A DNA stretch of 64,000 nt, from the NCBI GenBank assembly GCA_902784585.1, contig CACZVM010000001.1:161904-225903 (forward strand), written 5' to 3'. This DNA comes from an uncultured Bacteroidales bacterium. Lineage in GTDB: Bacteria; Bacteroidota; Bacteroidia; Bacteroidales; Paludibacteraceae. How positions within the stretch are numbered: the first letter of the stretch is position 1; each line of letters opens with the position of its first letter. The translations under genes and the position numbers were made by a program. Below the pieces are notes generated by a model. It ran no database searches. It saw only the letters and a program-made list of their open reading frames with translations, and was not told where the DNA came from. This document shows positions 1,405 through 50,064 of the stretch, one piece after another.

Positions 1405-4400
1405 ACTAAGAATCATATGGATGCTGGTGCTCTGTTGCTGTGCAGCAGGGATAACGGCTCAACGCTGGATCACGCATTTTGCGTATAACAACGTCACGCA
1501 GATAGCGATGGCATCTGATCGTGTGTATGCGTTGTCGGACGGCAGTCTGTATAGCGTGGACAAGTTGTCGGAACAGATACGCATCTACGGCCGTCAGTCG
1601 GGGCTACATGCTACGGGTATTACGTGTATCGGCTACGACGTGTACAGAAGCCAACTGATCATAGCCTATGATTTCGGTAAACTGGATATCCTGACGAATA
1701 ATGGGGTGCGCTATATAGGCGACTTGTACAACAAGGATATGACGCAGCGTAAGACGGTGCATAATATCACTATCCACGGAAGGACCGCGTACCTGTCGAC
1801 GCACTATGGCGTGCAGACGCTGGATCTGACGGAAAACAGACTGGTGGACAGCTACTGGCTTCGTCCAGACGGAGCAGAGACGCCAGTGATGGATGTGCTC
1901 ATCAATGGCGATAGTATATACGCCTTTACAACCGACAGTTTGTTCTGTGCATCTCTGAGCGATAACTTGGTGGATTATCATGTATGGCAGCGCGAGGTAA
2001 GAAGCGGCCGAATAAGTCCGGACAGTGAGAAGGGTAAGCATTATCAGGACGCGTTGGATAACTGGTATGCCGGAGGAGCAGAAGGAATCATACGTTTTAC
2101 GCCTACGGAGAGGTTGAGCTACAGGCCGGAAGGGCCGTTGACGAACATTTCGTATCGGGTGATGACCCATGGTGAGGAAGTGTATGTGCTTCCCGGCGGT
2201 CGATGGACCAACCAGAACTATACTTCCGGAAATATCATGCGTTTTGACGGCATTCATTGGCTGTGTATTCCCCGAGACTCCATCTATGCGCGAACCGGAA
2301 AACCGGTGTTGGATATGATGAACGTAGCGGTGGATCCGCAAGATTCGTCGCATCTGTTTGTGACCAGCTACGGAACAGGTTTGTATGAGTTCCAGGGTAC
2401 TCAACTGCAGCATCATTATTTGCCGGCAGCGGATAACACCTTAGAATCAGCAGTGCCGAACAATCCGACGCATTATACGCGTCTGGATAATGCGCTCTAT
2501 GACGCAGACGGCAATCTATGGCTGACGGTGGCGGGCGATGTAACGTATCCGCTGGTGTGCAAAGACCGGCAAGGCGTATGGCACGGACTGCCCATAATCG
2601 TCAATACCGTGGCCGTACCAATCCATACACCGGCAGGCCTGCTGGTGGACCGCCGTAATGGTCATCATAAATGGTTAGCCGCAGGAAGAGCGGGGACCGG
2701 ACTATACTTCATAGACGACCGAGGCACGTGGGATGCCTCTGACGACCGTATATGCAAACGTTCGAAATGGCTGGACCAACAGGGAGATGAGTTTGAGCCG
2801 CAGAATATCTACGCCGTGCTTCAGGACAGCGAAGGGCGCATATGGATGGCAACGGAGCAGGGTATAGCCCGGATAGATACAGAGGATTATTTTTCGGATG
2901 AAGATTGTGTGCGTCCCGTGCTGACGGATAATAACGGCGAGAACCCTATGCGTACTTTGAGCGTGAATGCCTTGTGCGAAGATGCCGAAGGCCAGATATG
3001 GGTTGGCACCCTGGATTTAGGTGTGTATGTGCTTAACAGTGAAGCGACCGAGATAGTAGCACACTATACGACAGACAACTCGGCTTTGCCGTCCAACAGC
3101 ATCCTCTCGGTGGCATGTACTGAGAGTGGAGGGATATATGTCGGTACGGCTGAAGGACTGGTGGCATATGATCCGCAGGGAAGAACAGAGCGTATTGAGT
3201 CCGAAGAGGAGGAAGAAGAACTGCATATGGGATATATGCAGCAATGGCGCTTGCATCTCTCGTACGCTGAGCCGCAAGAAGTGGTGGCAACCCCGGGACA
3301 TATCTATGCAGCAGCCAACGGAACGCTGTTCTCCGTCAATCGTCAAGACGAGACGATAGAGTATTGGAACAAAGCAACAGGCCTGACCGGTAACCGTATT
3401 GTACATATCGCCTATGATGCTGCGTCGGAGCAACTTATCATCGCTTACGACGACGGGCGTATTGACCTGCTGAGCGAAGACGGCGCGGTACGTCAGATGC
3501 CTGACCTCTATATGAAGGCCAGTTCGATGGCTATGAACATCAACTGTATTGCCATTGGTTCGCGCTATGTCTATTTAGGTACTACCTTCGGCATCTTGGC
3601 GGTCAATCCCCGCAAAGCGGAAGTAGTGGATACCTACTATATCGGTCAAGAGGCGGCATCAGTGAATGTGCAGCAGATAGTGGAGCACAACGACTCGCTC
3701 TATGCGTTTGCAGACAATCGCATGTATTCGGTTGCACTCAAGGATAATCTGGTAGACTATAATTACTGGCACGCGACACCTTTGGACGGAGATGGGTTGA
3801 CACATGCTTGCGCATGGCGTGACCGACTCTATGTGTTAATGCACGATACGCTGTATCGTCGCTCCAACGACATGTGGCAACAAGTTAGCCCTGAGGCCGT
3901 GAAATGGATTCATGCGTCGGGAGGTCAGTTGTTGGCTTATCGCGAAGGAGTAGGAGTGTTGTATATGGATGATGATAACCAGTGGCATGGGTTAGCGGGT
4001 TATAGTGCAGTGGATGCTGTTTATTCCAAGGGCGAATGGTGGCTTGGAATTTCGGAGAAAGGACTTATTCGCTTGAATAGTAGCGGCGATGATGTATTCC
4101 AACCAGAAGGTCCTAACAGCAATTTCGGCTACAGGTTGCACGCTACCGATGATCATGTGTATGTTGCTTCGGGTGGCCGTTGGGCAGAGCAATTCATGCG
4201 CTATGCACATTTGAACATCTACGATGGCGCCCAATGGCGCGGCATCACACCGAGTGATATCGGTTCGCGTGTCGGTAGGCCGGCAATAGATGCAGTGAGT
4301 ATAGCTGTGGATCCGAATAATGCCGGACATTTCTTTGTGGCTACTTATGGCACAGGAGTGTTTGAGTTTAACAACTATGAGGCAGTAGCGCACTATACTG

Positions 4401-17245: not shown

Positions 17246-17253
17246 TACCTTTG
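17222..17253 (+). promoter_or_regulatory. Promoter upstream of structured RNA copy A
   Basis: -33 TTTG (17222-17225), 20-bp spacer, -7 TACCTTTG (17246-17253). CCTTTGC-ACTC-GCAAAGG (17248-17265) makes a palindrome over the -7 box and likely start site. Confidence 0.8.
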
Positions 17254-17314
17254 CACTCGCAAAGGTTTCAAACACCTTTCCGTCGCTCCAAGACGTTAAA
17301 CCGGAGGACATATT

Positions 17315-17487
17315 AGAAATTAGGCGTTTGCTTTATTTGAGGATTCATTCAATCTACCACATTTGAATACACTATTCCGAGAATATTGCGAAACGCTCAC
17401 GTTTAGGCGTGAGCTTTCTGCATATATTGGATAGTGTGGGTGTGGTAGCCCGAATGAACCAATAGCAGTTGGCTCACGTTTTTTTGT
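17315..17487 (+). ncRNA. Structured leader RNA, copy A
   Basis: A rod-like RNA of nested helices. P1: GG-bulged A-TTCATTC (17341-17350) with GAATGAACC (17452-17460). P2: TACCAC with GTGGTA (17355-17360/17442-17447). P3: CACTAT-bulged T-CC with GGATAGTG (17370-17378/17429-17436). P4: GCTCACG with CGTGAGC (17395-17401/17408-17414). A third strand, GCTCACG (17472-17478), repeats the 5' arm of P4 and is followed by seven T's, so it can compete for CGTGAGC. The element ends 40 nt before the PKD lipoprotein ATG. Copy B at 40910-41073 has the same helices with compensatory changes. Class not recognised. Confidence 0.72.
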
Positions 17488-17526: not shown

Positions 17527-18438
17527 ATGAAAAACAAATTTTTCTTTATCTTAGCATTGACGATAGTCATAGCTGGATGCAAATCGGAAGAGCCGGAAAC
17601 ACAACCGGTTGCTAAATTTACGTATTCAGTAAACCAAAATGTGGTTACGTTTACTAATCAATCAACGAATGCTAAAAAATACTATTGGAATTTCGGAGAT
17701 GGATCTACTTCTTCCTCTACCAATCCAGTAAAAACCTATTCTAACACGGGTTCATATTCCGTGACACTTACTGCTACAAATATTACAAAAAGTAATTCCT
17801 ATTCAAAAACGATAGAAATAACTCAAACACCACCGCCAGAAGAACAAACTCCAACAGCAAAATTCACCTATAAAGTTCAACAACCGTTGAAGGTTGTTTT
17901 AACGAATACTTCCACAAATGCCACATCGTATTTATGGGAATTCGGAGATGGGTCTACCTCTACCGAAAAGAATCCAACACATAGATATAGCGGGTTAGGA
18001 GTCTATAGAATCAAACTAACGGCTAGTAATAGTACAAAATCAAGCACGCATGAAGAAAACGTGACAGTAGAAGCCCCAACAAATTGTTATGTAACTGGTT
18101 TGAGCATAAACAAAATCCCAAACAACAACTATTATTATCAAGTACAACTGACAGATGATTATACTTGGAGTAAAACCACATATTTTTACACAGACTGGTA
18201 TCTTTTGTCTTCGGCAAATCTCCCATATTCTCATACTCTAACCACCATGAAGAAGTTGGATATGAATGATAAATACGTTTTGCGCCTTTATAAGAATTCG
18301 GAAAAACAATCTGGTCAAGCATCAGGAAGTGGATTTTGGACAACCACTATTACATCTTCAGACTTAAAGAAATATCCAGAAAGCATAACTCGTTCCAACA
18401 CACAAGCAGAAATAAAGTTAGATTTTTATTGGAAATAG
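17527..18438 (+). CDS. Lipoprotein with two PKD domains
   Basis: A 303-residue lipoprotein (MKNKFFFILALTIVIAGC, Cys18). Two PKD domains occupy about 27-100 and 111-180; each has the (W/Y)xFGDGSTS motif (YYWNFGDGSTSSS, YLWEFGDGSTSTE). PKD domains are beta-sandwich adhesion or spacer modules, so the protein is probably anchored and surface-exposed. The C-terminal 120 residues (YVTGLSINKIPNNNYYYQ...) match no family I recognise but could be a C2-like beta-sandwich. The gene is visibly more AT-rich than its neighbours, suggesting acquisition. It follows structured RNA copy A directly. Confidence 0.85.
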   Translation: MKNKFFFILALTIVIAGCKSEEPETQPVAKFTYSVNQNVVTFTNQSTNAKKYYWNFGDGSTSSSTNPVKTYSNTGSYSVTLTATNITKSNSYSKTIEITQTPPPEEQTPTAKFTYKVQQPLKVVLTNTSTNATSYLWEFGDGSTSTEKNPTHRYSGLGVYRIKLTASNSTKSSTHEENVTVEAPTNCYVTGLSINKIPNNNYYYQVQLTDDYTWSKTTYFYTDWYLLSSANLPYSHTLTTMKKLDMNDKYVLRLYKNSEKQSGQASGSGFWTTTITSSDLKKYPESITRSNTQAEIKLDFYWK

Positions 18439-37560: not shown

Positions 37561-39570
37561 ATGAACAAGACACAACTCATGAATCGTGCAGCGGATAACA
37601 TCCGTATCCTGGCTGCAGCGGCAGTAGAGAAAGCCAAGAGTGGTCACCCGGGCGGTGCTATGGGTGGCGCAGATTTCATCAATGTTCTTTTCAGCGAGTT
37701 TCTGGAATACGATCCGGAGAACCCGGGTTGGGAAGCGCGTGACCGTTTCTTCCTCGACCCCGGTCACATGGCTCCGATGCTCTATTCGCAACTCTGCCTG
37801 GCCGGTAAGTTTACCCTCGAAGACCTGCAGAACCTCCGTCAATGGGGTTCGGTCACTCCCGGTCACCCCGAGCGTGAGATCGAACGCATGATAGAGAACA
37901 CCTCCGGTCCGCTGGGCCAAGGTCACGTCTTCGGCGTAGGTGCTGCCATCGCAGCCAAATGGTTCAACCAGCGTTACGGCGCTATCCATAATCCGACTAT
38001 CTATGCCTTCATCTCGGACGGCGGTGTACAGGAAGAGATCTCGCAGGGCGCAGGCCGTCTGGCCGGACACCTTGGTCTGGACAACCTCATCATGTTCTAC
38101 GACTCCAACACCATCCAGTTGTCCACCGAGTGCGGTGAGGTGACCAGCGAAGATGTAGCAGCCAAGTACAAGGCTTGGGGTTGGTTCGTTCAGGAGATCC
38201 CCGGTAATGATCCTGATGCTATCCGCGAAGCCCTCATCAAGGCCAAAGCAGAAAAAGGTCGTCCGTCGCTCATCATCGGTCATACCACGATGGGTAAGGG
38301 ATGTGTTACGGCTGAAGGCGCGAGCTGGGAAAACAAGTGCTCTACGCACGGTAACCCGCTCAGCAAGTCCGGTGCTTCGTTTGAGAAGACCATCGAGCAC
38401 CTCGGCGGTGATCCGCAGAACCCCTTCGTGATCTTCCCGGAAGTACAGAAACTGTACGAAGACCGTGCTATCGAGCTGCGCGAGCTGGCTAACAAGAAAT
38501 ATGCGGCATACCACGAGTGGAAAGAGAAGAATCCGCTTGCAGCCAACGAATATGAGACCTTCATGTCGGGTGAGACACCTTGCATCGACTGGAGCCTCGT
38601 GGAGCAGAAAGCCGGTGACGCTACGCGTAACGCCAGCGGTAGGGTGCTCAGCTTCCTCGCAGAGAACGTAGGTAACATGATCGTCAGCTCGGCTGACCTG
38701 AGCAACTCCGACAAGACCGACGGTTTCCTCAAGAAGACCCACGCCATCAAGAAGGGTGACTTCAGCGGTCAGTTCCTCCAAGCCGGCGTAGCCGAGCTCA
38801 CCATGGCTTGCGTCTGCATCGGTATGTCGCTCCACGGCGGTATCATCCCCGCTTGCGGTACGTTCTTCGTCTTCAGCGACTATATGAAACCTGCCGTTCG
38901 TCTGGCTGCCCTCATGGAACTGCCGGTTATCTTCATCTGGAGTCACGACGCGTTCCGCGTAGGCGAAGACGGTCCGACGCACGAGCCGGTTGAGCAAGAA
39001 GCACAAATCCGTCTCATGGAGAAACTGCATAATCATCACGGCAAGCCGTCGATGCTCGTTCTCCGTCCGGCAGACGCAGAAGAGACGACGCTCGCTTGGC
39101 GTGCAGCCATCGAGAACACCGCCACTCCGAGCGCACTTATTTTGAGCCGTCAGGATATTGCACCTGTTCCAAATGTCAACTTGGAAGGCTTCCGAAAAGG
39201 TGCATATATCGTTTCAAAAGACGAAAATCCGCAAGTGGTTTTACTCGCTTCTGGAAGTGAAGTTTCGACATTGCTCGCAGGAGCAGAGTTGCTGCGCAAA
39301 GAAGGAGTACGCTTGCAGGTAGTAAGTGTTCCTTCCGAAGGACGTTTCCGCGAGCAACCCGCTGAGTATCAGAACGAAGTACTCCCGAAGGGCGTTAAAC
39401 GCTTCGGTATGACCGCAGGTCTGCCTTGCACGCTCCAGGGACTTGTTGGCGACAACGGTGCTATCTGGGGTCTCGAGAGCTTCGGTTTCTCCGCTCCGTA
39501 CAAGGTACTGGACGAGAAACTCGGCTTCACCGCACAAAATGTTTATGAGCAAGTGAAGAAACTGCTGTAA
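37561..39570 (+). CDS. tkt: Transketolase
   Basis: A 669-residue thiamine-diphosphate enzyme moving two-carbon ketol units in the pentose phosphate pathway. Motifs are KSGHPGGAMGGADF, LDPGHMAPMLYS, a TPP-binding FISDGGVQEEISQGAG...N segment (SDG in place of the usual GDG), and the pyrimidine-domain DAFRVGEDGPTHEPVEQ. The ATG at 37561 gives the usual N-terminus MNKTQLMNRAADNIR. Codon use is strongly biased, as in highly expressed genes, except for a short AT-richer stretch near 39140-39270. A Fic gene follows after 20 bp without a terminator. Confidence 0.96.
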   Translation: MNKTQLMNRAADNIRILAAAAVEKAKSGHPGGAMGGADFINVLFSEFLEYDPENPGWEARDRFFLDPGHMAPMLYSQLCLAGKFTLEDLQNLRQWGSVTPGHPEREIERMIENTSGPLGQGHVFGVGAAIAAKWFNQRYGAIHNPTIYAFISDGGVQEEISQGAGRLAGHLGLDNLIMFYDSNTIQLSTECGEVTSEDVAAKYKAWGWFVQEIPGNDPDAIREALIKAKAEKGRPSLIIGHTTMGKGCVTAEGASWENKCSTHGNPLSKSGASFEKTIEHLGGDPQNPFVIFPEVQKLYEDRAIELRELANKKYAAYHEWKEKNPLAANEYETFMSGETPCIDWSLVEQKAGDATRNASGRVLSFLAENVGNMIVSSADLSNSDKTDGFLKKTHAIKKGDFSGQFLQAGVAELTMACVCIGMSLHGGIIPACGTFFVFSDYMKPAVRLAALMELPVIFIWSHDAFRVGEDGPTHEPVEQEAQIRLMEKLHNHHGKPSMLVLRPADAEETTLAWRAAIENTATPSALILSRQDIAPVPNVNLEGFRKGAYIVSKDENPQVVLLASGSEVSTLLAGAELLRKEGVRLQVVSVPSEGRFREQPAEYQNEVLPKGVKRFGMTAGLPCTLQGLVGDNGAIWGLESFGFSAPYKVLDEKLGFTAQNVYEQVKKLL

Positions 39571-39590
39571 GAAATACGAGCACATAATAG

Positions 39591-40853
39591 ATGCTAACAC
39601 CTCAAGACATAGAAAAACCCGTTATTCCTGAGTTTGAGGAATACATCCGCCAAGGAGAACCGGATCAGAAAGCCAAGGCATCGCTTTGGCAGACTGCTAT
39701 CGGTCTCCAGGCGGTGGATGGGTTGAAGACGTCTGAGTATCTTCGTGAAACTGCGCGTCGTAACATCGAAGGAGAGATTTCTTTGGACGAGGCGCATCAG
39801 CTCATCCATGGTTACTACCAGAAACGCACTGCTCATGACGAGCCGACCAACGAAGATGAGGCAGAAGCGGATCGCGCGTCGTCCAATATCGCGCGCATTC
39901 TTGCATCGCAGACCTTGGCATTTAATACGAATGGCTTGATAGCATTACACCGCCGTATTTTTGAAGGAGTATTCAAGCACGCCGGAGAATTGCGTACATA
40001 CGACATTACAAAAAAGGAATGGGTACTCCGTGAAGACACAGTTAATTACCTGAATTGGGAAGATTTGCGCAGTGCTTTGGATTATGACATACAGGCGGAA
40101 AAAGCCTTTTCATATACGAACATCTCTAATGACGAGATGATCACACATATCTCACATTTTGTGAGTGATCTATGGCAAATCCATCCTTTCGGCGAAGGTA
40201 ATACACGTACTACGGCAGTCTTCACAATCTTGTATTTGAGATCTATAGGCTTTGCTGTCAACAACGATTTGTTTGCTAATCATGCTTGGTATTTTCGCAA
40301 CGCCCTCGTGCGTGCCAACTATAAGAGCGCGCGTTTAGGTATAGATTATTCGCCGCAATACTTGGAGCGTTTCTTCCGAAACTTACTGTTTGGAGAACAA
40401 TGGGATTTGCGTAGCCGTTACCTCTATATCAATCCGCCGGAGGAATGGCAAAATCAACCGAATTTAGCGGCAGGACAAATACCGAACAAGTACCGAACAA
40501 GTACCGAACAAGTACCCGAACAAGCACCCGAACAAGCACCCGAACAAGCACCCGAACAAGTACCCGAACAAGTTACAACGCAAACATATGTAAATCAATT
40601 AGATATAAACTTGTATGGGGAACTGCAAAAACAGCTGATATCTGCGATTGGTTTAGAAAAACGGAGTATAAAAGAATTACTTGACATCCTTCATTTACGT
40701 CATAGGCCGAATTTTATCGAATACCACCTGCGACCGGCTTTAGAGGCAAAATTGATAGTTCCGCTATACCCCAATAACATCAACCACCCTCGGCAGAAAT
40801 ACCTGCTGACGATAAAAGGAATGATGCTGTTTAATCAGTTATCAAACAAATGA
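39591..40853 (+). CDS. Fic family protein with repeat tract and winged-helix tail
   Basis: A 420-residue protein. An N-terminal helical part contains ETARRNIEGEIS, the place of the inhibitory (S/T)xxxE(G/N) motif but with Arg for Ser/Thr. The Fic core has HPFGEGNTRT at about 198-207, which transfers AMP or a related group to target hydroxyls. After about 295 come repeats of PNKYRTSTEQ and then EQAPEQAPEQ, encoded by 11- and 12-bp DNA repeats. The C-terminal 90 residues look like a winged helix (KRSIKELLDILHLRHRPNF), usual in Fic proteins. No antitoxin gene is adjacent. It is 20 bp downstream of transketolase and may be an insertion there. Confidence 0.88.
   Translation: MLTPQDIEKPVIPEFEEYIRQGEPDQKAKASLWQTAIGLQAVDGLKTSEYLRETARRNIEGEISLDEAHQLIHGYYQKRTAHDEPTNEDEAEADRASSNIARILASQTLAFNTNGLIALHRRIFEGVFKHAGELRTYDITKKEWVLREDTVNYLNWEDLRSALDYDIQAEKAFSYTNISNDEMITHISHFVSDLWQIHPFGEGNTRTTAVFTILYLRSIGFAVNNDLFANHAWYFRNALVRANYKSARLGIDYSPQYLERFFRNLLFGEQWDLRSRYLYINPPEEWQNQPNLAAGQIPNKYRTSTEQVPEQAPEQAPEQAPEQVPEQVTTQTYVNQLDINLYGELQKQLISAIGLEKRSIKELLDILHLRHRPNFIEYHLRPALEAKLIVPLYPNNINHPRQKYLLTIKGMMLFNQLSNK
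40480..40572 (+). repeat. 11-bp x3 and 12-bp x5 tandem repeats in the Fic gene
   Basis: TACCGAACAAG three times (40480-40512), then (T/C)ACCCGAACAAG five times (40513-40572). The 11-bp unit is not a multiple of three, so a change in its number shifts the frame before the winged-helix part. Confidence 0.92.
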
Positions 40854-40909
40854 CCTCAACTACAATCCTGCCTATGGCATAAAACAACAGACAAACAACA
40901 TACATAAAT

Positions 40910-41073
40910 AAGCATTTGCTTTATTAAGGAGACATTCAATCTTGGACCATTGTAATCACTTTCCTAAATATAGCGAATGTTCACACGTATCTGTGTGGGC
41001 ATTCTGCGTATATTGGAAGTGATGGGAGTCCAAGCCCGAATGTCCTGATATAAACAGATTGCCCACACTTTTA
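40910..41073 (+). ncRNA. Structured leader RNA, copy B
   Basis: Homologue of copy A (17315-17487). P1: GG-bulged A-GACATTC with GAATGTCC (40928-40937/41038-41045). P2: TTGGAC with GTCCAA (40942-40947/41028-41033). P3: CACTT-bulged T-CC with GGAAGTG (40957-40964/41015-41021). P4: GTTCACAC with GTGTGGGC (40979-40986/40993-41000), including two G-U pairs. The third strand GCCCACAC (41061-41068) matches GTGTGGGC perfectly and is followed by TTTTATTT. Internal loops AATC/GCCC and the strand TTCTGCGTATATTGG are conserved with copy A. No TAnnTTTG promoter is clear upstream. The DUF2971-like ATG is 22 nt further on. Confidence 0.7.
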
Positions 41074-41094
41074 TTTATCAAACTCTCAAAAGCT

Positions 41095-41829
41095 ATGTTA
41101 AATATAAATGATTTTCAAACTGCTGATTTTATTCAGCAAAGCAGAAATATTTATCTTCATAAAGATTTGACATTTGGTACTCCTATTTGCAGGTATATTC
41201 CTATTGACTACTTTGTAGAAATCCTGTCCACTCAAAAACTATATGTCTCAAATAGGAAATATCTCAATGACAAAAGAGAACAAGGAATTAAAGAGAATCT
41301 GCGTGATATTTTCCCCTTGTCTCCAATATATGAAGACGAGAATATGACACGAGAAGAAGCGATTCGACGATATGGACTACATCAAGAAGCGTATTCTACA
41401 TGTGTTTCTTGTTGGACTAAAAGAACTGATGAAAGCATTATGTTATGGAATTGTTATGGGCAAAACACATGTAGGCTTTCCACTACAATAGGCGGTTTAA
41501 TCAATGCAATCCAGCCAGATTTACAGATGCCAACAATTTTAGTAGCTCCTATCCAATATGTTGATAATGATGGAACAAATCTAATCTATGAAAAAGTATT
41601 TAGTAAAAATAAGGCATATCAAGATGAACAAGAGATTAGGCTATGTTTATTATGTAACGAACACCATTTTTTATTGAATATTGACACAAAAGTACTGATT
41701 AAAGATATAATTCTCAATCCTTTCTTTAGTAAATGTTACCAAAACTTTCTTAAAGACTCTATTGAGGAAAGATACAAATTTTTAGATGGAAGAATTAATT
41801 ATTCCCACCTGTTAGAGTATAAATCATAA
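41095..41829 (+). CDS. DUF2971-like protein
   Basis: A 244-residue soluble protein. The pattern CRYIPIDYFVEILSTQKLYVSNRKYLND, then SCWTKRTDESIMLWNCYG and a C-terminal DEQEIRLCLL resembles DUF2971, a family frequent in accessory and defence-associated regions but without known activity. The ATG at 41095 fits this pattern; an ATG at 41059 would lie inside the structured RNA. The gene is strongly AT-rich compared with the housekeeping genes. It may be co-transcribed with the next two genes. Confidence 0.75.
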   Translation: MLNINDFQTADFIQQSRNIYLHKDLTFGTPICRYIPIDYFVEILSTQKLYVSNRKYLNDKREQGIKENLRDIFPLSPIYEDENMTREEAIRRYGLHQEAYSTCVSCWTKRTDESIMLWNCYGQNTCRLSTTIGGLINAIQPDLQMPTILVAPIQYVDNDGTNLIYEKVFSKNKAYQDEQEIRLCLLCNEHHFLLNIDTKVLIKDIILNPFFSKCYQNFLKDSIEERYKFLDGRINYSHLLEYKS

Positions 41830-41842
41830 AAAACATATTGAT

Positions 41843-43384
41843 ATGAAACACGTAATATCTATAGTGCTATTATTGGCAAATATTGTCATCACGTCTTCTG
41901 CTATTGAAACTATTTCTCCAGAATTCAAGAAAAGCGGAACAAATTATGTACTGATCTCCTCTATTGATGTAGATATTGATGAAACGAACATATATATTGA
42001 TTGTTCTCCTTATTTTCAAAAAAAATCAAGTTCATATTACCCTTTTTATGGCAATTCTGTTCACAATTTATCGATAAATATAGATAAAAACATAATAATG
42101 ACATACATCGATCCTATAAATAGACAAACAATAAAAGTAAACGCATTAGAATTATACGCATTTGGTGATAATAAACTATTCTTTAACAAAAATTATTATT
42201 TAAATGATTTCCTTCAAGAAGACGGAAAGTATTACCCCTATATTTCCATCGTATTTCCACCTCTACCGGAAGGAGTGGATACTATTTCAATATATGAAGA
42301 TGAAACAAATAAGAATAATGGATGGTGGTGGGAGAATATTTATATTAAACCGTTAACCATAGGAAAGACAACAAGATTAGTTTCTGATATAGATTCTATT
42401 AACACTCTTATCAAAACTACAAAAAGTCAATATGCAGGAATATATGAGAAAGTAGGAACTGATAATGGTGGTATTGATTATACTCTTGCATATCTACAAT
42501 ATATGGATAAAGATTATCTGGTTTATATCAAAAGTGATGATATTAATAGTGTATGGAAAATTGGAGAAGTAAAAGCAGAGTTACGATCTTCGGCTAATTC
42601 GGGGACATTTAAGGCTACATGGTACAATCGTGATAAATCGGAAAACTCTAAATGTGTGGTTTCCTTTGATAATAGCACAATGAAAGTTTTTGTTAACGAT
42701 GAGATCGATACATATATTAAAATGAATAATGGTGATAATAACTCATTTAGTTCAAATCAAGCATTATGGTCAGGAACAGGCTTTGCGTTAAATAAAGGAT
42801 ATGTCGTAACGAATTATCATGTTGTAAACGAAGCAACGTCAATTGAGATATTTGGGATAAATAAAGATATATCAAAAGCATATAAAGCAGATGTTGTAGG
42901 TGTAGATAAAGTAAATGATTTAGCTCTGCTAAAAATTAAAGATGATGCTTTCACTTCGTTTGGTAACATACCATATAATGTAAAGCAAGCTATGGCTGAA
43001 GTCGGAGAAGATATATTTGTACTCGGTTATCCTTTAACCACTACAATGGGAACTGAAGTTAAACTTACAAATGGTATCATTAGTTCTCGTTCTGGATTTG
43101 ATGGAGATATAGCTTTGTATCAAATCTCTGCTCCAATACAACCAGGAAATAGCGGTGGCCCATTGTTTGACAAAAAAGGAAATCTCATAGGCGTGATATG
43201 TGCGAAACATTTAGGAGCAGAGAATGCTGGTTATGCGATAAAAATGTCATACCTTAGGAATCTTGTTGAATCGGTCGCTGATATTAGTATTTTGCCTACC
43301 AAAAATAATATTAATACAACCGAACTTAAAGAACAAGTAAAACAAATTTCACCATATGTGTTCTTAATTAAGTGTTCAAAATAA
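41843..43384 (+). CDS. Secreted trypsin-like serine protease with novel N-terminal region
   Basis: A 513-residue exported protein (signal peptide MKHVISIVLLLANIVITSSA). Residues 25-300 are beta-rich and match nothing I recognise. The S1 protease domain (about 305-480) has SGTGFALNKGYVVTNYHVVN (His about 329), VNDLALLKI (Asp about 359) and QPGNSGGPLFDKKGNLIGV (Ser about 436), a full catalytic triad of the DegP/trypsin type, but no PDZ domain follows. AT-rich like its neighbours. It lies 13 bp after the DUF2971-like gene. Confidence 0.85.
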   Translation: MKHVISIVLLLANIVITSSAIETISPEFKKSGTNYVLISSIDVDIDETNIYIDCSPYFQKKSSSYYPFYGNSVHNLSINIDKNIIMTYIDPINRQTIKVNALELYAFGDNKLFFNKNYYLNDFLQEDGKYYPYISIVFPPLPEGVDTISIYEDETNKNNGWWWENIYIKPLTIGKTTRLVSDIDSINTLIKTTKSQYAGIYEKVGTDNGGIDYTLAYLQYMDKDYLVYIKSDDINSVWKIGEVKAELRSSANSGTFKATWYNRDKSENSKCVVSFDNSTMKVFVNDEIDTYIKMNNGDNNSFSSNQALWSGTGFALNKGYVVTNYHVVNEATSIEIFGINKDISKAYKADVVGVDKVNDLALLKIKDDAFTSFGNIPYNVKQAMAEVGEDIFVLGYPLTTTMGTEVKLTNGIISSRSGFDGDIALYQISAPIQPGNSGGPLFDKKGNLIGVICAKHLGAENAGYAIKMSYLRNLVESVADISILPTKNNINTTELKEQVKQISPYVFLIKCSK

Positions 43385-43412
43385 TTACTCGGAAAATAAA
43401 GTTATAGCATCA

Positions 43413-44264
43413 ATGAAATATATTATTCCGATTTTAATTACAATATCGCTTTTCTTCTTTGCATGCACAAAGCAAATAGACACGACAAAACCATACAAAG
43501 TATCTTCTAATGCCTCGTGGGTACAAGAGTTGAAGCAAAGAAATCCGCTTAAAGATAGTGCAAATATTACAAGCGTCTATTTTTGTTATGACACTATTGT
43601 TAACGACTACAAGGTCAGCGGTATATTTTATCCTATTTACCAAGAGGAATACAAGAATGACATATGGAGCGGCTGGAGTTACGAATCAGGTGTATATATG
43701 ATTTTTCATAATGTTCAAACAGGGAATGAATTCGTGTTCAGCAAAATGGGTAAATGGATTTCCGGAGATGATAATTGCGAATACTTTTTGAGTAGAAATA
43801 TAATGGATATATTTTGCAACTCATTCAAAGGATTCGGAAAGGACGATGCGTATGTTTTCAAATACCATGACGAAGAGGTCTGTAGCGAAAACCCTTTGCT
43901 CTTAGAGGCGGATTTCCAATTTGCAGATGTAGATTTTGATGGGGAAGATGAATTAGTAATTTGCAATCATGGAGGAGGACCAAGAGGCAGTAATAGTTAT
44001 GATGCATATGAGATTACGACGGATGGATTATTAGAGAAGAAACCGTACAACAAACCCGATTGTTGGTTTGCTTTTACTGAAGATACACGTTTTGATACGA
44101 TTAATAAATATGTCATTTGTAGTCTGTCTGAAAGTAGTTGTCAAAGGGGAGAATATATATATCAAGCTGATGAGAACGGAGATTTGAAATATATTCGTCA
44201 TATTAATTATATCTATGGTACAGAAAACGATGTACTAATAACTGATACTACTGAATACAACTAA
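43413..44264 (+). CDS. Lipoprotein of unknown function
   Basis: A 283-residue lipoprotein (MKYIIPILITISLFFFAC, Cys18). The middle contains FADVDFDGEDELVICNHGGG, an EF-hand-like DxDxDGxxE loop as in FG-GAP/VCBS-type or XAC2610-type proteins, so calcium binding is possible. The remainder is beta-rich with several cysteines. It is the third gene of the AT-rich run and ends before a hairpin terminator. Possibly an inhibitor or partner of the upstream secreted protease; this is inference from adjacency only. Confidence 0.75.
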   Translation: MKYIIPILITISLFFFACTKQIDTTKPYKVSSNASWVQELKQRNPLKDSANITSVYFCYDTIVNDYKVSGIFYPIYQEEYKNDIWSGWSYESGVYMIFHNVQTGNEFVFSKMGKWISGDDNCEYFLSRNIMDIFCNSFKGFGKDDAYVFKYHDEEVCSENPLLLEADFQFADVDFDGEDELVICNHGGGPRGSNSYDAYEITTDGLLEKKPYNKPDCWFAFTEDTRFDTINKYVICSLSESSCQRGEYIYQADENGDLKYIRHINYIYGTENDVLITDTTEYN

Positions 44265-44310
44265 CCCCTTTCGCTCTATCGATAACCCGGTAACTCGATC
44301 TATCGGAACT

Positions 44311-44347
44311 CCTGCCTGCTCCGCCACCGAGCAGGCAGGTTCTTTCT
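44311..44347 (+). terminator. Terminator of the accessory operon
   Basis: CCTGCCTGCTC (44311-44321) pairs with GAGCAGGCAGG (44329-44339), followed by a weak T-rich tail TTCTTTCTT. Confidence 0.75.
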
Positions 44348-44446
44348 TCGTATGTTTCGCCGGAAATAATCGTGCCCTCGCGGCTAAGAATCCTATTCCG
44401 ACAATCGGCTGTCTCAAAGTCTCATAGTCTCACGTACATTTTTTGA

Positions 44447-44512
44447 TTTGTCAGTTTTGTCAGTTCTGTCAGTTTCCTTTTCCAAACTGACAATACTGAC
44501 ATTACTGACATG
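44447..44512. repeat. Inverted pair of 9-bp tandem repeats
   Basis: TTTGTCAGT, TTTGTCAGT, TCTGTCAGT face AAACTGACA, ATACTGACA, TTACTGACA across an 8-nt spacer (CCTTTTCC), so the whole can fold into a hairpin of nearly 30 bp with few mismatches. Confidence 0.85.
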
Positions 44513-44549
44513 GTAAATTTTTATTGCATCAGCCAAGTTTGGCACTTCC

Positions 44550-44720
44550 TGGGGGCCCCGCAAATTTTAATTTGTGGGGGGAGCGGAGGCAATGGTCGCA
44601 CCTGCCATTTAGCATGGAGAATTGCCTTGAATTGGCAATTCGAACGGAAGGAGCAGTGGGGAGCGTCGCTCCGACCATAGAACAAGGTATGGCCTTTGCG
44701 ATCCATTTGCCGAACGCGAC
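44550..44720 (+). repeat. GGGGCCCC palindrome element, copy 2
   Basis: CCCCGCAAATT (44556-44566) pairs with AATTTGTGGGG (44569-44579), then GGAGCGGAGGCA, a CCAT-TTAGC-ATGG hairpin, and after two extra hairpins TTTGCCGAACGCGA. It corresponds to copy 1 at 13166-13269. Confidence 0.7.
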
Positions 44721-45351
44721 TGTTAGTTGTTCTTAGTCATTCTTAGTGGTCCGTTAACCATTCTCGTGGGTATCTCGAGGTTATGTCGTTCGCATTACGT
44801 TAGCATCCTGTACGTGACCGTACGATGCCTTTACCTTTTTCTTAATAATCGGACATTTTCAGAGAAAGCTCAATAGTGGCTCGAGAGATGCTTGAGATAT
44901 GCTGATTGACAGTCATTAGTTGGTATGCTTTCCGTTTTCATAAATCTTAATAATCGTGCATTTTAGAGGGATGGAAAGAGCCGTTATGAACAGGCAAAAA
45001 CCTCGACTTGCCCCCGAGATGAGTCTGAGATTACCCTTACTTGCCCTCGATAACATGTTTATAATATGCTGAAAATAAAAGGCTTACAAAAATAGTTCAA
45101 ATTAGTATAAAAAATATGAATCTTAATAATCGGATACTTTTACATATCTTCCATTGATAGCGATAGAAGTTCGCAGGTATAGGGCTGGAGATTCGGATAA
45201 ACGGACAAGAAATTGTCGGAATTATTCACTGATAGTAACAAACGATACCGTAATACACATTACGATTTTTCTCTCATTTTTCTTCATTTTCTTCATTTTT
45301 TTTGAAAAGTTGAAGTATTTCATTCTATTTGGCAAAAAAATGTCCGAACGC

Positions 45352-45382
45352 TTGCGTATGTCAAAAAAAAGTAGTACCTTTG
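45352..45382 (+). promoter_or_regulatory. Promoter of leuS
   Basis: -33 TTG (45352-45354), 20-bp spacer, -7 TACCTTTG (45375-45382). CCTTTGC-AGTC-GCAAAGG (45377-45394) is palindromic over the -7 box. Confidence 0.85.
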
Positions 45383-45437
45383 CAGTCGCAAAGGTTTGGA
45401 CCTATGCGAATTGAACAACAAGACAAATAATAGTTTT

Positions 45438-49987: not shown

Positions 49988-50064
49988 TGAACCAGCTGGG
50001 GCTCGAACCCAGGACCCCATCCTTAAAAGGGATGTGCTCTACCTGCTGAACGCTTCGCTGGTTT
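49988..50064 (-). tRNA. tRNA-Lys(TTT), atypical 5' half
   Basis: The anticodon stem CATCC/GGATG with loop CTTTTAA, D-arm GTTC-AGCAGGTA-GAGC and T-arm CTGGG-TTCGAGC-CCCAG are normal. The acceptor pairs AAACCAG with CTGGTTC, leaving an A-C mismatch at 1-72, and six bases (CGAAGC) occupy the place of the usual two at positions 8-9, making it 4 nt longer than expected. It has its own promoter and terminator. It may be a degenerate copy or an unusual functional tRNA. CCA is not encoded. Confidence 0.8.

Follow-up and report, generated by a model that had tools for sequence, protein, structure and literature searches.

A putative family of attenuator-like leader RNAs in front of unrelated accessory genes of the Bacteroidia

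A 64,000-nucleotide stretch of the genome of an uncultured Bacteroidales bacterium of the Paludibacteraceae (contig CACZVM010000001.1; this whole stretch is called the window hereafter) contains two similar structured elements, copies A and B, each of which lies shortly before an accessory gene. Which kind of element is it that is found twice in front of genes that are unrelated to each other? A sequence-only reading had proposed a selected RNA structure before unrelated accessory genes, and this proposal is supported by the analysis described here, in which the family furthermore proved to be class-wide, to possess two predicted folds and, apparently, to recombine separately from its genes. 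Searched with R2, a covariance model of 68 homologues that includes A and B in its training set, and with filters off, the window contains these two copies as its sole good matches (Table 1); up to E = 1 there is one further match, which is antisense to the P4 helix of A (E 0.62). Compared with 200 dinucleotide shuffles each, the copies fold with z values of -6.0 (A) and -7.3 (B), and none of the shuffles was as good. The helices P1 to P4 that had been claimed for both copies were found in their places, and the claimed spacing of 22-40 nt to the gene comes to about 41 nt for A (ATG at 17527) and about 21 nt for B (ATG at 41095). Pfam likewise bore out the PKD label of the gene behind A and the protease label downstream of B, but the label DUF2971 for the first gene behind B found no counterpart there.

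Table 1. Positions, in the window, of the two leader copies, their segments and the genes behind them.
Feature	Position	Strand	Basis
Copy A: TACCTTTG, match to presumed Bacteroidota -7 promoter box	17246..17253	+	box enriched upstream of copies
Copy A: H-type pseudoknot candidate upstream of core, CGTC/GACG, loop CTCC with GGAG	17280..17309	+	by eye
Copy A: leader RNA core	17321..17484	+	R2 100.6 bits, E 8.1e-15
Copy A: s1, partner of s2	17322..17331	+	covariation and placement
Copy A: P1 5' strand	17341..17350	+	covariation and placement
Copy A: P2 5' strand (apical loop of 5' half hairpin)	17354..17360	+	covariation/folding and placement
Copy A: P3 5' strand	17370..17378	+	covariation and placement
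Copy A: s2 = P4 5' strand, partner of s1 or s3	17388..17401	+	partner-swap test
Copy A: s3 = P4 3' strand, partner of s2 or s4	17408..17421	+	partner-swap test and covariation
Copy A: P3 3' strand	17429..17436	+	
Copy A: P2 3' strand (apical loop of 3' half hairpin)	17442..17448	+	
Copy A: P1 3' strand	17452..17460	+	
Copy A: s4, with s3 terminator-like hairpin, -32.6 kcal/mol alone	17459..17478	+	covariation and folding
Copy A: T-tract directly 3' of s4	17479..17485	+	
PKD-domain lipoprotein gene downstream of A	17527..18438	+	PF18911, E 6.2e-28; lipoprotein by eye
Copy B: conserved block upstream of s1 (GCCTATGGC...), near left end of block common to unrelated loci	40870..40911	+	
Copy B: leader RNA core	40909..41073	+	R2 94.4 bits, E 8.3e-14
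Copy B: s1	40911..40919	+	
Copy B: P1 5' strand	40928..40937	+	
Copy B: P2 5' strand	40941..40947	+	
Copy B: P3 5' strand	40957..40964	+	
Copy B: s2 = P4 5' strand	40973..40986	+	
Copy B: s3 = P4 3' strand	40993..41007	+	
Copy B: P3 3' strand	41015..41021	+	
Copy B: P2 3' strand	41028..41034	+	
Copy B: P1 3' strand	41038..41045	+	
Copy B: s4; s3..s4 hairpin -36.1 kcal/mol alone	41045..41068	+	folding
Copy B: T-rich tract after s4 (TTTTATTTAT)	41069..41078	+	
First gene downstream of B	41095..41829	+	no Pfam match at E <= 0.001
Trypsin-like protease gene, second in row after B	41843..43384	+	PF13365, E 6.1e-27
Lipoprotein-like gene, third in row after B	43413..44264	+	by eye; no Pfam match

The covariation that had been seen between the two copies is also strong among the homologues. 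In an alignment of 68 copies, the rod P1-P4 contains 432 cells that are changed on both sides of a pair, compared with 180 in shuffles, and its score is 0.428 compared with 0.186, neither value being reached by any of 500 shuffles; a cruder count of the pairs with any double change gives 30 versus 27.5 and was reached in 42 of 500. The rod as read earlier from A and B therewith stands, but an alternative to it, in which s1 pairs with s2 and s3 with s4, and the T-tract after s4 had been overlooked. In the same alignment, this alternative is 97.3% paired (94.4 in shuffles) and has 26 double-change cells where 5.3 are expected, which none of 500 shuffles reaches; its pairs with any double change number 6 versus 3.4 (reached in 9 of 500). 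For partner-swap tests, the copies were divided into two sets that are distinct by RNA sequence, 68 near copies, mostly from the genus of the window, and 88 far copies from other genera. All three pairings stood out in both sets, with 0 of 100 swaps reaching the native value each time: s1:s2 with z 6.4 (near) and 5.8 (far), s2:s3 with 9.7 and 12.7, and s3:s4 with 7.5 and 7.2. One column of s3 covaries with both of its partners, the one in s2 and the one in s4 (z 9.4 each), on a covariation scale that is not noise-free, as a column pair outside every proposed helix reaches z 7.8. The P4 pair 94:116 of the rod is U.G in 55 of the 68 rows, and 116:208, which belongs to s3:s4, is G-C in 54. The leader ends with a run of at least four T in 153 of 156 copies, so that what is found are mutually exclusive conserved pairings, one of which ends in a T-tract, as in an attenuator. 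From these alignments it could be shown that the alternation of s1, s2, s3 and s4 (1:2 with 3:4, or 2:3 within the rod) is conserved, with covariation in both predicted states. Two further pairings were considered and rejected, namely s1:s4 as a closing helix (z -1.2 in the far set, and a weak 2.5 with 0 of 100 swaps in the near set) and a pairing of the region before s1 with that behind the T-tract (weak in the far set, z 3.3, and none in the near set, z -0.7).

The extent of the family was followed in genome draws that overlap and include the genome of the window, which itself has eight matches at E < 1e-4 plus a weak ninth. A first model of 25 sequences (R1) has matches in 134 of 151 genomes of the genus, with up to 10 per genome, in 124 of 250 genomes and 24 of 33 genera of the family draw, and in 74 of 393 genomes and 52 of 206 genera of the order draw. 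R2 has matches in 83 of 345 genomes and 50 of 178 genera of the class draw and in 31 of 296 genomes of the phylum draw, with two weaker ones outside the class (E 2.4e-6 and 3.6e-4). As a check of specificity, a pattern scan of titled contigs gave 69 loci, of which 50 have an R2 match; these are all titled Paludibacteraceae or Bacteroidales, and the 19 negative ones comprise all 12 titled outside Bacteroidota and 7 titled within. Rfam 15 at the gathering threshold gave no leader match in the window, in the 20 scanned of 29 order-level loci or in the 20 scanned of 33 loci from the class and phylum searches, and its E-value mode returned for A and B sub-threshold eukaryotic families only. The earlier reading had named a lack of further covarying homologues and an Rfam hit to a known, non-regulatory RNA as findings that would speak against it; many homologues with covariation exist, and there was no such hit among the leader copies scanned. 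The literature searched, in whose coverage supplements, most subscription papers and preprints are not included, held no paper on this leader family. Elsewhere in the window, at 49988-50056 on the minus strand, Rfam matches a tRNA (37.9 bits) that ARAGORN does not call. In some contigs two copies occur on the same strand at 1-2 kb from each other (L233 at 435-592 and 2355-2515; L042, which is the same contig as L122, at 1674-1841 and 2999-3172), a weakly supported pair in L056 is about 3 kb apart, and still wider spacings occur, for example in G609:C15; integron-like arrays were considered, and no long array was seen beyond such pairs. Another locus, L006 (G000:C14:519-554), has only the first part of the leader and the upstream block before it diverges, and is either a truncated copy or a recombination scar.

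The relation of the leader to its surroundings becomes apparent from close pairs of copies. Copy B and a locus of genome G015 share a block of 215 bp at 97.7% identity, which stretches from roughly 40 nt upstream of s1 as far as the T-tract and has unrelated flanks on both sides. Among the 68 near copies there are 25 pairs with at least 90% identity across the RNA, 22 of which align over less than 350 nt, and in only one of these 22 are the downstream proteins homologous; of the 14 pairs at 92-98.6% identity, 13 align over less than 350 nt. The best reading of these alignments is that the leader recombines between loci independently of the gene behind it, and a spread of the leader independent of its genes is favoured by the same data. 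The blocks may move by gene conversion between copies, which is as possible as transposition. Copy B lies between the genes for transketolase (tkt, by Pfam) and leucyl-tRNA synthetase (leuS, by eye), and the region from one to the other (39570-45396) is a hotspot of accessory genes in the genus: after tkt, some genomes carry Fic-like (Fic by Pfam), DUF1016-like or other single genes, and in others leuS is directly adjacent (partly judged by eye). The RNA pattern was found in 2 of 30 genus loci at tkt (the window itself and L270), which is a lower bound with loci fetched to about 1.5 kb past tkt; in G004 the RNA lies farther along at the same place, and in G058 the coordinates put one just after tkt.

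Leader-sized blocks between unrelated flanks and an insertion hotspot at the tkt-leuS junction are also what would be expected if the element acted as DNA, namely as a MITE-like or attC-like site, mobile or used for recombination, that carries the genes as cargo and whose repeats coevolve via one protein that binds them. The similar sequences in s2, s3 and s4, which occur in opposite orientations, fit this as well. RNA and DNA can be told apart by A.C and G.U mismatches, which were counted in 68 copies, with internal loops excluded, and compared with shuffles that keep the column composition. A.C is depleted much more than G.U (observed/shuffled) in P4 (A.C 1/20.9, G.U 111/121.6), in s3:s4 (2/14.8 and 70/84.3) and in the P3 core (4/21.6 and 21/35.9), which points to an RNA in the sense of the gene; the effect is weaker in s1:s2 (6/10.7 and 52/56.4). 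In the raw counts of P3, s2:s3, s3:s4 and s1:s2, G.U is far above A.C, which mostly reflects base composition, and the joint raw row of P1 and P2 is opposite in direction (3:177 near, 15:40 far). RNA-level selection, as judged by these mismatches, is supported for P3, P4 and s3:s4. P1 (A.C 52/67.8, G.U 33/57.3) and P2 (15/42.6 and 3/39.6) show no G.U preference, a lack of strand preference that suits a DNA element. Internal loops were rejected as its cause, since the preference is still absent with the loops left out. Faulty alignment could be part of the cause, or Watson-Crick pairs could be required in P2, as is often the case for loop-loop contacts. Besides the A.C depletion, the DNA reading has against it that neither terminal inverted repeats nor target duplications were seen by eye in 15 loci, that three consensus patterns had 0 occurrences in a viral collection, and that distance and orientation to the gene start are fairly consistent, and we think that it is decidedly unlikely.

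The position of the RNA relative to promoters and genes fits a 5' leader. A box of the Bacteroidota -7 consensus is found within 160 nt upstream of 50 of 87 far copies, where 12.2 are expected, and of 20 of 64 near copies, where 3.3 are, and many copies, 37 and 44 respectively, are without it there; upstream of A we take TACCTTTG to be this box, and upstream of B none was found in 40501-40915. Between the RNA and the ATG it occurs in 1 of 70 far and 0 of 58 near copies. Near leaders of type A have candidate H-type pseudoknots with an A-rich linker upstream in 17 of 68 copies versus 2.7 expected, a list that does not name copy A itself, and the far set is closer to background (25 of 88 versus 18.5 expected). 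The leader and the first ORF downstream of it have the same orientation in 60 of 68 near copies (opposite in 6, no ORF in 2) and in 78 of 88 far copies (opposite in 5, no ORF in 5), and the median gap is 54 and 72 nt in the two sets. Upstream genes are co-oriented too, if less strongly (52:12 near, 55:27 far), so that the bias seen downstream may in part reflect operon context. By a crude test, the first downstream ORF starts like a signal peptide in 54 of 67 near and 55 of 83 far copies, with 96 of 314 ORFs of the same loci as background.

A promoter-like box upstream and a T-tract at the end could also delimit a stand-alone sRNA, some 200 nt long and equipped with a promoter and a terminator of its own, that acts in trans, for example via the P2 loops, and whose downstream gene is a mere neighbour, expressed independently or by leak. 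The several copies per genome (up to 10) and the recurrence of P2-loop sequences between copies (a crude count) are in line with this. Against such an sRNA stand the co-orientation of the first downstream ORF (60:6 and 78:5), its median distance, its bias to exported proteins and a -7 box before the ATG in only 1 of 128 copies, and we regard it as unlikely.

What lies behind the leader was assessed by a Pfam scan of 139 of 150 downstream proteins, namely those that start at most 300 nt from it, cut at 320 residues. These 139 proteins matched 73 families, with BspA-type LRR_5 (16) as the commonest, and CsgG (4), T9SS tails (4), PKD (2), one MTase_III and one REase_I among the others. The genes are diverse and mostly exported, in agreement with the claim that they are unrelated accessory genes, and the functionally related downstream genes by which a riboswitch is recognized are not seen in these 73 families of 139 proteins. 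The 83 co-oriented upstream proteins repeatedly include members of nuclease, toxin-antitoxin and phage-type families (DUF1016 5, DUF2442 5, YhcG 4, PIN 3, HEPN 2, KilA-N 2, ORF6N 2, DUF3791 2), and housekeeping genes are also found (e.g. L007, L109, L117, L106, L133); the upstream gene was rejected as part of the unit, as upstream genes vary independently. In L343, L344, L346 and L354, all from one class-level genus, the leader is flanked by a divergent small gene and a large exported gene, which by eye look HTH-like and SusC-like, respectively.

How the two folds could act on the downstream gene is suggested by their energies. If the RNA is cut between s2 and s3, each half alone forms a long hairpin, with means of -18.8 and -29.7 kcal/mol in the near set, where the rod has -56.3, and of -19.2 and -27.7 kcal/mol in the far set, where the rod has -61.0; the 3' half ends at the T-tract. 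When growing transcripts are folded by computation, the partner of s2 is s1 in 88 of the 156 copies as long as s3 has not emerged, and s3 in 152 of 156 just after, and in the minimum free energy fold of the full length s3 pairs with s2 in 154 copies and with s4 in 2. As this energy favours the rod as default, the terminator-like fold would need a factor or kinetic trapping. In four copies inspected, the P2 strands lie in or beside the apical loops of both halves, and their complementarity suggests that the two half hairpins could kiss. In the scheme that we propose, 3:4 with the T-tract would act as an intrinsic terminator and end transcription ahead of the gene, the rod would be the antiterminator, and by minimum free energy the default, that lets transcription through, and a factor holding the 5' half hairpin (1:2) would move the balance to OFF. 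The loop of about 28 nt between the s3 and s4 strands of copy A counts against the terminator reading. Both the termination and the regulation of the downstream gene we infer from the pairings and the T-tract.

Alternatively, the T-tract could be a mere linker, and the choice between 3:4 and 2:3 could alter the access to the region before the start codon, so that translation or mRNA stability would be switched. In the far copies, s4 indeed covaries with a segment s5 behind the T-tract (z 6.6), with a run of at least 6 in 70 of 88 copies compared with 53.7 when swapped; as s5 lies beyond the T-tract, s4:s5 matters only in read-through transcripts. In addition, a second hairpin (loop GATGGGATATAA; GGCG/CGCC or GCTC/GAGC as stems) is conserved shortly in front of the ATG in 14 of 156 copies, where it follows the T-tract 30-60 nt after the leader, e.g. 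in L115, L116, L119, L125, L131 and L005; a 15th match was discounted because it lies inside an ORF. The near copies, however, which include the window's kind, give s4:s5 no support (z -1.0; 39 of 68 versus 32.4), tens of nt separate s5 from the ATG behind it in copies inspected by eye, and the T-tract that immediately follows s4 in 153 of 156 copies is a better fit to termination. A translational or stability switch seems quite improbable to us. A leader-peptide mini-ORF (GCCTATG..TAA), which is seen by eye in many far copies, was rejected as it is absent from others.

We therefore return to transcription, and hold it to be somewhat better than an even chance that A and B belong to one family of 5' leader RNAs that are attenuator-like two-state switches. 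This family we call undescribed on the basis of Rfam and the literature, where the FopS RNAs discussed below are set apart by their description and the GUCCY-hairpin and Bacteroides-2 motifs are known here without structures. A recombining leader block could bring numerous unrelated accessory genes, most of them coding for exported proteins, under the same control. In a bolder version, which we put forward tentatively and rate clearly below an even chance, the leader would be a mobile RNA switch of about 205 bp that spreads through the class Bacteroidia independently of its genes and repeatedly puts newly acquired exported-protein or defence genes under one shared signal, with kissing mirror-image hairpins choosing between read-through and termination. 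With matches in 83 of 345 class genomes, up to 10 per genome, and no Rfam match in the scanned copies, it would be a large unannotated family of regulatory RNAs in Bacteroidota, and, if it is a switch, it would offer one handle on the control of many surface and accessory genes that are not related to each other. Compensatory mutation of the four named segments would test the mechanism directly.

Among known systems, the closest in architecture are the trp-type transcription attenuators, in which the pairings 1:2, 2:3 and 3:4 alternate. Four segments, mutually exclusive pairings and a T-tract after 3:4 are shared with these, whereas in an unsystematic look no leader peptide was identified here, the rod of P1-P3 is long and variable, with internal loops that are conserved, and the downstream genes are unrelated accessory genes. 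Flavo-1 (RF01705) is likewise an RNA motif of Bacteroidota, described from 5' regions in Flavobacterium psychrophilum (PMC9723704); it differs in having 76 positions, and it matches L339 at 1048-1123, a place apart from the leader. The GUCCY-hairpin and Bacteroides-2 motifs resemble the leader as Bacteroidetes candidates, stand without an Rfam number in the table of Weinberg 2010, and are known here from that table and text without structures (PMC2864571). The FopS sRNAs of Bacteroides thetaiotaomicron share with the leader that they are multicopy Bacteroidales RNAs with a link to outer-membrane proteins and a terminator hairpin. They are described as consisting of a single-stranded 5' stretch with the seed R1 and one terminator hairpin and as acting in trans on SusC-type mRNAs (PMC11697453), whereas in the leader both halves take part in a paired structure, about 165 nt long, that precedes genes.
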